Assembly: GCA_025363475.1 (NCBI GenBank)
Contig: JANYDS010000021.1
Coordinates: 1 to 61,691 of the forward strand
DNA length: 61,691 nt
Origin: Terriglobia bacterium
Lineage (GTDB): Bacteria > Acidobacteriota > Terriglobia > Bryobacterales > Bryobacteraceae
Reading direction: 5' to 3'
The notes under the pieces were generated by a model. It did not search any database. It saw nothing but the letters and a program-made list of their open reading frames with translations, and was not told where the DNA came from. Both the position numbers and the translations under genes were made by a program. Each line of letters opens with the position of its first letter. Position 1 is the stretch's first letter. Shown one piece after another: positions 46,975 to 48,912 of this stretch.

Positions 46975-47373
46975 CTAGACCAGAAACGCCAGCCAGACCA
47001 GCACAGGCGCCAGTACCGTTGTCAGCAGGCAGTAGAAACACCACGCCCCCAGCTGCGCCATATCCCGAATTCCCATGACGTTGGCTATTCCTGCCACCAC
47101 TGCGATGGTCCGAAGTGAATAACGCACCCAGCCATGCACAGGTGAAACAAACGCCAGTGCGATCAGAGCCGCATACATCCCCGCCGCGATAAACCCGTCA
47201 GGAATGCCGCCAGGCCGCGCGAAGGGTGCATCCGCCACTGCCTCGCAACCACCTTTCAACAGAGGGCAGCTCATATGTTCAATTGCCCGTATCTGATACG
47301 CGCCTACGTAAAGCATGGCCGCGGCACTTACTGCTGAAAGCAGAATCAGCCACGACCGTACCGACAGTCTCAT
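46975..47373 (-). CDS. Vitamin K epoxide reductase (VKOR) family protein
   Basis: From ATG 47373, which overlaps the redoxin stop as ATGA, the product is 132 residues with four hydrophobic segments. The VKOR features are present: a Cys pair region (MSCPLLKGGCEAV) after the first helix and the membrane CFYC pair (GAWCFYCLLTTV) near the C-terminus. VKOR homologues oxidise periplasmic thiol oxidoreductases using quinone. Coupling to the upstream redoxin gene suggests it reoxidises that protein or a partner. Confidence 0.88.
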   Translation of the reverse strand: MRLSVRSWLILLSAVSAAAMLYVGAYQIRAIEHMSCPLLKGGCEAVADAPFARPGGIPDGFIAAGMYAALIALAFVSPVHGWVRYSLRTIAVVAGIANVMGIRDMAQLGAWCFYCLLTTVLAPVLVWLAFLV

Positions 47374-48527
47374 CGCGTTGCCGGCGCAACTACGGGAGCG
47401 TTCGGCCGCTGAAAAATAGTCGGACGCATATCCAGAGTCCACGTGAGAGGGACTTCAACCGGATTAAAACATTCCTTGTCGTTGCACGCCTGGTACTGCA
47501 GCGTCCCGTTCAACGTCAGCGTCTTTGTCCCGCGCAGCGCAGCCTGCGTCTTCAGCGTGCCGTCCAGCACTATTTCCTGAACCAGCTGGAACGGCTTTTG
47601 AAACACGGGAACTCGCTCCTTGAGCGGTTTGAAATAGTAAGTCTGCGAAGCAGAGAACTTGGCCGGCAACGCCCGCACATACTCCTGCGGGGTTATCGTA
47701 AGCGCCACAGGCTTGTATCCCGCGGCCCCCGGTGCGTATACGTGGATCCCAGGCCCGGGCGTAATATCCAGCACCAGTGAAATCCGGTTCCCCGCCGCTA
47801 TTGACGAGTCGCTGGAATACGTAGTCAGATCCAGATGCGAGCTCGAAACCTTCGTCGCCGCCACAGCCTTATCGCTTCGACCCAGTTTCACCATCAAACT
47901 GGAAACAGTATTCCGCTCAATATAAAAATCCTCAAAGAAGCGCGACGTAACCCTGCCCTTCCGGTCCAGCATGAAGGTCCCAGGAAACGCCATGCCAATC
48001 ATGATCCGGTTCGGGTTCACTTCGGAAACATACATCTTGATATCGGCTTTCACTGCCGGATCATCTTTGTTCGCGCCGAAAGCCTCTTCCGTCACGGGAT
48101 TCAAAATGCCATATCGCTTGATGGTCGATGAACCTGCATCCGACAGCAGCGGAAAAGTAATCGAACGCTGCTTACTGAACGCCGCCAGTGTCTCAACCGG
48201 ATCGTAGCTCACAGCCACCAGACCCAACCCCTTTGCCTGAATCTCCTTCAATCGTCCCTGCAACTCGACCAGTTGCGTTTTGCAGTATGGTCACCAGTCT
48301 GCGGAACGGAAGAACACCAGCATCGTTCCCTTAGGCCCGGCCACGGATTCAAGGGTCGTCACCCGTCCGTTCTGATCTTTCAGACTAAAGTCCGGCACTT
48401 TCTCGCCCACCTGCGGGCCAAGTTTCGAGACGTCAATCTTCGCGCGCGGAGTCTGCGCGAACGCGCCCGCCGCTAATAACACCAACATTGCCGAAGGAAA
48501 AATGGAAAGCCGCATAGGTGTTAACAT
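47370..48527 (-). CDS. Redoxin (AhpC/TSA-like) with DsbD N-terminal-like domain, predicted selenoprotein (Sec79)
   Basis: From ATG 48527, with GGAG 5 bases upstream, the frame reads a signal peptide and a redoxin domain up to VFFRSADW, then UGA at codon 79, then PYCKTQLVELQGRLKEI and on to a normal stop. The total is 385 residues. Cys-containing relatives read WCPYC, so the UGA sits exactly at the first redox cysteine, giving UPYC. A SECIS-like hairpin follows. The rest of the redoxin domain reaches about residue 205. Residues about 240-370 resemble the DsbD N-terminal domain, with YQACNDKECF. It is coupled to VKOR. The alternative is a nonsense mutation, but the position and hairpin argue for selenocysteine. 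Confidence 0.8.
48258..48285 (-). promoter_or_regulatory. SECIS-like hairpin downstream of the in-frame UGA
   Basis: On the minus strand, 15 bases after the UGA (48293-48291), the sequence forms a stem CAACT/AGTTG closing a five-base loop GGTCG. An outer CTG/CAG pairing lies across an internal bulge. The E. coli fdhF SECIS also presents GGUC in its apical loop. The loop begins 20 bases after the UGA here and 18 bases after it there. Folding and covariation have not been computed. Confidence 0.6.
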
Positions 48528-48555
48528 ATCATCTCCAGACGGCCTCCCCATTCTG

Positions 48556-48912
48556 CTATTGCAGCTTCAGCGTCTTAACCTTGACCGTATCGCCGTCCAT
48601 TTCGCCCGTGACGGTCACTTTAAGGTTGTCTTTCTTTTTGGTCGCTCTCAGTGCAGCCGAAGCTTTTGTATTTCCCGCCGCATCCAGCATCACGAACTTG
48701 TTATCGACCGTAAACACGCCATAGCCGCTCTTCTCGCAATCAGGCATCAGGGCGCACTTCGTGTCATGCATGGCTGCTGCTGCCTGACCGCCTTTTTCCG
48801 CTTTCATTGAGCACATCTTGTCCATCAAAATTCCGTCGACCTGTGCGGCCGAGAGCGTAAACGTGAGTCCGGCCAGCAGGATTGCAAGGCGCGGAACTGA
48901 TTGAAGTTTCAT
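48556..48912 (-). CDS. Small secreted Cys-containing protein, unknown function
   Basis: The start is placed at ATG 48912, which has AAGGAG upstream and a signal peptide (MKLQSVPRLAILLAGLTFTLSA). The 118-residue product has three cysteines in the segment MDKMCSMKAEKGGQ...CALMPDCEKSGYGVFTV, then a Lys-rich beta-strand end. Similar small exported proteins occur in Acidobacteria. It lies directly upstream of the predicted selenoprotein redoxin on the same strand. Its cysteines could make it a redox partner, but that is speculation. Confidence 0.65.
   Translation of the reverse strand: MKLQSVPRLAILLAGLTFTLSAAQVDGILMDKMCSMKAEKGGQAAAAMHDTKCALMPDCEKSGYGVFTVDNKFVMLDAAGNTKASAALRATKKKDNLKVTVTGEMDGDTVKVKTLKLQ

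Follow-up and report, generated by a model that had tools for sequence, protein, structure and literature searches.

In DsbD, the N-terminal domain (nDsbD) takes electrons and hands them on in a reducing pathway, and the redoxin SelL carries a UxxU motif. The selenoproteins listed as Prx-like thiol:disulfide oxidoreductases (PF00578, UxxC or UxxU) are given as a redoxin domain alone in excerpts of PMC9312934 and PMC13188914. The same excerpts contain entries named "Redoxin family protein" (MBA3499694.1 in PMC9312934; HEU0032618.1, PF08534, in PMC13188914), which are also UxxC redoxins, and other domain fusions of Prx-like selenoproteins are described in an excerpt of PMC2398784. For Acidobacteriota, table 2 of a 2006 survey recorded three families with four selenoproteins (PMC1794560).

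We investigated a locus in an acidobacterial window, i.e., the whole stretch of 61,691 nt that was analyzed. A predicted exported redoxin gene with a UPYC site and an nDsbD-like fusion lies on its minus strand (47370..48527), as do all other window features given below, and comprises 385 codons before a terminal TGA. Its sole internal TGA, predicted to encode selenocysteine, is codon 79 (48291..48293). The surrounding residues read SADW-U-PYCKTQL, with the motif W-U-P-Y-C (U79-P-Y-C82), in which Cys82 (TGC; 48282..48284) is the second active-site residue. Translation from 48527 to 47370 bore out the claim of an earlier, sequence-only reading of this DNA that the frame is continuous with a single UGA at codon 79. 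As that reading had expected of automatic gene callers, a standard-code ORF scan split the gene into 48291–48551 (86 aa) and 47370–48263 (297 aa). Searches of the whole window for tRNAs and for Rfam families at gathering scores were negative.

The predicted product begins with a putative signal peptide (residues 1–24, ending in LLAAGAFAQ; 48456..48527), recognized by eye and coinciding with a low-pLDDT N-terminus in the structural model. It continues with an AhpC-TSA redoxin domain (PF00578, residues 40–194; 47946..48410; 102.2 bits, cut-off 26) and an nDsbD-like domain (Pfam DsbD_N, residues 245–356; 47460..47795), the latter assigned from Pfam, aligned members, and fold. The C-terminal Cys pair, C348-x4-C353 (CNDKEC; 47469..47486), was invariant in a 24-row alignment of this domain. 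In an AlphaFold model built from 30 rows (pLDDT 92.7, pTM 0.87), a beta domain comes after the redoxin fold. The fold of the redoxin domain resembles AhpE, Bcp, and ResA, and the best solved relatives by profile and fold together were the Bcp and AhpE peroxiredoxins. The DsbD N-terminal-like domain had also been proposed from the sequence; its Pfam score in the window protein was borderline (24.5 bits against a cut-off of 25; 26.8 in the genome search), but 23 of the 30 aligned family members matched DsbD_N, and the fold supported the assignment as well. When the C-terminal domain was modelled alone (pLDDT 92.9), its two best fold matches were the N-terminal domain of ScsB (6c29; E = 3.8e-5) and nDsbD of N. 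meningitidis (6dps; E = 1.3e-4), with moderate similarity (TM 0.56/0.40 and 0.43/0.57, respectively). A sequence search of solved structures with this domain gave 0 matches at E ≤ 1.

The nearest listed kind appears to be the UxxC Prx-like thiol:disulfide oxidoreductases, with which the window protein shares the AhpC-TSA domain (well over its cut-off), the UxxC motif, and a predicted redox function. Beyond what is listed for them in those excerpts, the window protein has a signal peptide, as judged by eye, and an nDsbD-like domain that brings a Cys pair of its own. SelL, a related redoxin, differs in having UxxU where the window protein has UxxC; against the corresponding NCBIfam family NF040769 (SelL_rel_redox), the window protein scored 45 bits, far below the cut-off of 120, and 29 of the 30 aligned members matched this family at E ≤ 1e-5. 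The window protein matched 17 NCBIfam families, in every case with a score under the family's cut-off, and the best NCBIfam E-value among the other 29 aligned members was 3.5e-16. Its C-terminal domain shares fold and Cys pair with the N-terminal domain of DsbD and ScsB. However, the protein had no Pfam match to the DsbD membrane domain or the C-terminal thioredoxin domain, and therefore cannot alone be a DsbD.

The fusion was not found in the literature examined. In the inventory table of a 2026 study (PMC13188914), no redoxin-DsbD fusion was found, the one DsbD entry noted being the rhodanese/DsbD fusion-like TsoB, and the string "acidobacteri" is absent from the main text of that study. Likewise, no such fusion appeared in excerpts of PMC9312934, PMC2398784, PMC5029168, PMC12013277, and PMC1794560, and among the papers listed by literature searches, none dealt with a redoxin-nDsbD selenoprotein fusion, as judged by title and abstract start. 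The two UxxC "Redoxin family protein" entries may belong to the same family as the window protein.

UGA and cysteine codons across the family

Homologues were collected from 101 genomes (the window's own and 100 relatives, among the matches listed) and from a collection of GTDB contigs, of whose 107 loci the best 80 were taken. The nearest homologues with a named source were from Acidobacteria MAGs (L053–L057), in keeping with an acidobacterial origin of the window. The search patterns for the contig collection included ADWCPYCK, which favours Cys loci, whereas the 101-genome search was free of that bias. Before alignment, five loci that had been retrieved a second time with longer flanks were omitted, and the contig of L075 was treated as identical to that of L030, the two agreeing in length and in best selB E-value. 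From 138 aligned rows, a motif filter removed 32, namely five TGA rows of a group with RG[YH]W-U-P[FY]C and 27 general peroxiredoxins in which the site residue is Ser or Thr, and nine were removed as duplicates over 40 nt from the site codon, leaving 97 (48 TGA, 46 Cys, and 3 AGC). The family considered here comprises 92 of these: the three AGC rows (L107, L111, and L123), which are general peroxiredoxins with PLDWSP that the loose filter had passed, were excluded, as were two Cys rows lacking the SADW motif (L108 and L114).

In these 92 non-duplicate rows, the site codon was TGA in 48 (hereafter U rows) and TGC or TGT in 44 (Cys rows); the UGA thus stands exactly where relatives carry the first Cys of WCPYC, as the sequence-only reading had stated. 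All aligned rows of at least 70 bits had TGA or Cys at the site, and Thr or Ser occurred only in general peroxiredoxins of at most 68.2 bits, so that the absence of any other residue is true of the kept family and not of redoxins at large. Strong homologues with a non-Cys residue, which the same reading had named as contrary evidence, were therefore missing from the rows at or above 70 bits. U and Cys alternate repeatedly within the family: on the 92-row tree (quick method), the distribution of U and Cys rows needed 12 changes, 7 of which were forced by well-supported (starred) branches.

The protein downstream of the UGA is intact, again as claimed. Every one of the 48 U rows and 44 Cys rows has the counterpart of Cys82, and beyond the UGA all 48 U rows stay open for 259–309 codons up to the stop. 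In comparison with eight relatives, the part 3' of the TGA was under purifying selection, with dN of 0.26–0.36 and pS of 0.68–0.77, the latter meaning that synonymous sites are near saturation.

The genes for Sec decoding were sought in the host assembly (4.16 Mb, 96.34% complete), a search suggested together with the original prediction, and all four were present above cut-off: tRNA-Sec (70.7 bits; identified by ARAGORN as tRNA-SeC, anticodon tca), and selA, selB, and selD (477.5, 350.7, and 351.8 bits, respectively, each above the curated cut-off). There were eight weaker tRNA-Sec matches, and the three run through ARAGORN were serine tRNAs. Across the family, selB exceeded its cut-off in the genomes of 45 of the 48 U rows versus 7 of the 44 Cys rows, the selB state of each row having been entered by hand. 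The three U rows without selB above cut-off (L033, L040, and L155) come from draft genomes that are 85–88% complete, and the genome of L155 contains a selB fragment. Conversely, one of the seven selB-positive Cys rows (L154) comes from a genome that also holds a U copy. On independent tree pairs (n = 7), selB and U/Cys state changed in the same direction in 4.3, in opposite directions in 0.0, and without difference in 2.6 (median p = 0.125, not significant), so relatedness may explain part of the association. Counts for a genome-level Fisher test (selB with 46 of 49 U genomes and 6 of 43 Cys genomes) were made by hand and ignore relatedness, and we prefer the row counts and tree pairs.

Of the 101 genomes, at least 45 hold a UGA copy (hand count, among the matches listed), so that in Acidobacteriota, a major phylum of soils, this selenoprotein family looks common. 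If the family has indeed switched repeatedly between selenium and sulfur, the value of selenium in one enzyme could be compared across close natural pairs. Repeated Sec/Cys interchange in near relatives, with the SECIS kept or decaying, would also make it testable, in matched pairs of natural enzymes, why bacteria keep selenocysteine.

The motif Y[QRM][AVTG]C...C was found in 43 of the 48 U rows and 23 of the 44 Cys rows. By eye, three further U rows (L031, L035, and L155) had a similar motif with F in place of Y. Among the 21 Cys rows without the motif, 20 were short proteins of 99–207 aa from Proteobacteria and Verrucomicrobiota, except for one acidobacterial row (L098). Within this sample, the redoxin-nDsbD fusion is thus the acidobacterial form. 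The sole named exception is L062 (CALQBJ020000168.1), an acidobacterial-type homologue that is sister to L055 in a record named as a Bifidobacterium breve MAG, which is probably a mislabelled MAG or a contaminated bin. A related clade (L071, L068, L066, L146, L135, L144, and L041) shares an N-terminal piece that precedes the redoxin and may be fused to it; in L071 and L066 this piece is weakly DUF5818-like. The window's own genome also contains a UGA-containing paralogue (L133; G000:C5:33013-33999) with the same fusion, all six SECIS pairs, and no adjoining VKOR match. In addition, a second redoxin group in the same relatives (L157, L158, L159, L165, and L166) carries RG[YH]W-U-P[FY]C with an in-frame TGA at the same site, and is probably another selenoredoxin family.

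The hairpin after the UGA

In E. coli fdhF, the SECIS is a stem-loop at a similar distance after the UGA, with a GGUC apical loop. At the redoxin locus, the sequence-only reading had placed a hairpin with such a loop within 48245–48293. The hairpin was found, although its core is narrower than that span: the bSECIS core GCAACU-GGUCG-AGUUGC occupies 48260..48276, where 48276–48271 pairs with 48265–48260 around the 5-nt loop GGUCG (48270–48266; GGUC at 48270–48267). With the U of the UGA numbered 1, this is a 6-bp stem of positions 18–23 with 29–34, and the loop starts 20 nt after the UGA. The published bSECIS model allows a loop of 3–9 nt, a stem of 4–16 bp, and a spacing of 16–37 nt, with G in the first two loop positions (PMC13188914); the 5-nt loop, 6-bp stem, 20-nt spacing, and G24/G25 all lie within these constraints.

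In the 48 U rows, 97.2% of the pair cells were formed, a level reached by 0 of 500 shuffles and compared with at most 43% for a slid partner. In the 44 Cys rows, 65.5% were formed (14 of 500 shuffles; at most 39% for a slid partner), an excess as expected if Sec was lost recently in some rows or if part of the stem is promoted by the coding sequence alone. The full six pairs were present in 41 of the 48 U rows versus 2 of the 44 Cys rows. On independent tree pairs (n = 7), hairpin and U/Cys state changed together in 5.2, oppositely in 0, and without difference in 1.8 (p = 0.06, not significant).

The covariation was synonymous. Pair 21–31, which in U rows was G-C in 28, A-U in 19, and G-U in 1, lies between the third position of the Gln85 codon (CAA/CAG) and the first position of the Leu89 codon (mostly TTG/CTG), and neither change alters the protein. 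The two bases changed together in 7.8 of 8 independent tree pairs (median p = 0.008). When non-adjacent columns among 45 were scanned for mutual information, pair 21–31 ranked first and pair 24–27 second, both inside the hairpin, and pair 18–34 ranked fourth. Pair 24–27 (C-G in 20, G-C in 19, and other in 9 of 48) links the wobble bases of Leu86 and Val87, again synonymously; between them, G25 was invariant and U26 was present in 47 of the 48 U rows. Unlike in the fdhF SECIS, the loop in this family is either GGUC or CGUG, and its closing pair covaries. On independent tree pairs (n = 6), 24 and 27 changed together in 5.0 and oppositely in 0 (p = 0.06, not significant), and for pair 18–34 there were only 2 independent tree pairs (p = 1). 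At the level of sequence comparison, the hairpin is confirmed to behave as a SECIS, and its synonymous covariation cleanly describes the SECIS used by the redoxin-nDsbD family.

Folding and covariation had both been proposed as checks, and they differed in outcome: covariation was positive, whereas the window piece folded alone preferred another structure over the hairpin (z = −0.96). The 49-nt piece has a minimum free energy of −10.1 kcal/mol (bSECIS criterion ≤ −7.5), but this minimum-energy fold differs from the hairpin, which makes the energy criterion uninformative here. A single sequence would thus miss the hairpin, and the family alignment reveals it.

One Cys homologue, L057 (L057:2477-3625), has all six stem pairs intact in a genome without selB above cut-off, and is sister to a U row (L026) at a starred branch. 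Most simply, it is likely to represent a recent Sec-to-Cys change that left a fossil SECIS.

Periplasmic role and neighboring genes

Given the observed frame, UGA/Cys interchange, SECIS covariation, Sec machinery genes, and predicted folds, we regard it as highly probable that the product is a selenoprotein and that it has a redox role in the periplasm. SelB and Sec-tRNA(Sec) would decode the UGA at codon 79 as selenocysteine, directed by the SECIS hairpin at nt 15–31 after the UGA within the coding sequence, and the product would be exported. The redoxin domain would act as a thiol-disulfide oxidoreductase, in which Sec79 attacks and Cys82 resolves through a selenenylsulfide. The nDsbD-like domain, with C348 and C353, most likely relays electrons to Sec79/Cys82. 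The electron source is probably a DsbD-like membrane protein encoded elsewhere in the genome; the host genome does contain a DsbD-like frame of 771 aa with DsbD_N by Pfam and, by eye, a hydrophobic region and a CxxC-containing C-terminal part. The enzyme might then reduce periplasmic disulfides or peroxides. A selenium-dependent periplasmic thiol system, as the earlier reading had suggested, is plausible from the by-eye signal peptide, the redoxin domain, and the nDsbD-like fold. We favour the reducing direction because an electron-relaying nDsbD-type domain is fused to the selenol centre, and hold the chances for this direction to be about even. We propose more tentatively, with slightly less than even confidence, that this is a large unnamed acidobacterial family of exported redoxin-nDsbD proteins with a one-chain periplasmic relay (C348/C353 to Sec79/Cys82), at least seven supported Se/S switches, and a fossil SECIS in L057.

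It is somewhat unlikely that the protein is a selenium-dependent periplasmic peroxidase, in which Cys82 or Sec79 would meet peroxide and the nDsbD-like domain would re-reduce the centre. Bcp and AhpE, the best solved relatives, are peroxiredoxins, and in the alignment Cys82 shares a column with the Cys of their TxxC motif. However, Sec/Cys79 takes the place of the Thr in TxxC, the CxxC spacing matches thioredoxin-like disulfide oxidoreductases, and the top NCBIfam match was ResA, though under its cut-off.

We consider it unlikely that the same selenoprotein works in the oxidising direction, with VKOR and quinone oxidising the UPYC centre, which would then introduce disulfides into exported proteins in a DsbA-like manner. 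Here, the nDsbD domain argues to the contrary, as it belongs to a reducing pathway in DsbD. What suggests oxidation is a gene for a VKOR-family membrane protein (46975..47373; Pfam 47.6 bits), whose ATG overlaps the redoxin stop codon (4-nt ATGA), together with the situation in L077, where a related VKOR (46% identity) immediately precedes the redoxin, a gene order swapped relative to the window. VKOR/DsbA pairing is, moreover, an established pathway, as described in an excerpt of PMC11208910. However, with the window's VKOR as the query, a match adjoined the redoxin in just 2 of 97 loci (flanks were short in some), and in three genomes with close redoxin homologues (G097, G013, and G090) the match sat on another contig. 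Matches were found in 19 of the 101 genomes and in none of the other 82. The coupling of redoxin to VKOR claimed from the sequence thus holds for the window genome and L077 and does not extend to the rest of the 97 loci, and a family-wide VKOR partnership is not supported.

That the gene is no selenoprotein but a pseudogene, arising by nonsense mutation or assembly error, was rejected as having next to no probability: the standard-code scan does yield two ORFs, but the recurrence of TGA at this codon across 48 non-duplicate rows with an open frame behind it, the purifying selection, the synonymous SECIS covariation, and the Sec machinery genes all contradict it. Reading of the UGA as Trp was rejected by argument, since the gene's own terminator is TGA and relatives carry Cys.

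No obvious gene was shared among the neighborhoods listed for 21 rows. Upstream of the redoxin gene, 48556..48912 encodes a small exported-looking protein with several cysteines and no Pfam family over cut-off, whose membership in the redoxin system is uncertain; a homologue (37% identity) adjoins the Cys redoxin in L055 (L055:1985-2341, minus strand). Finally, at G082:C87:20741-21977, some 470 nt separate a VKOR match from a weak redoxin match that contains an internal TAG, a further VKOR-redoxin neighborhood that is probably outside the UPYC redoxin family.
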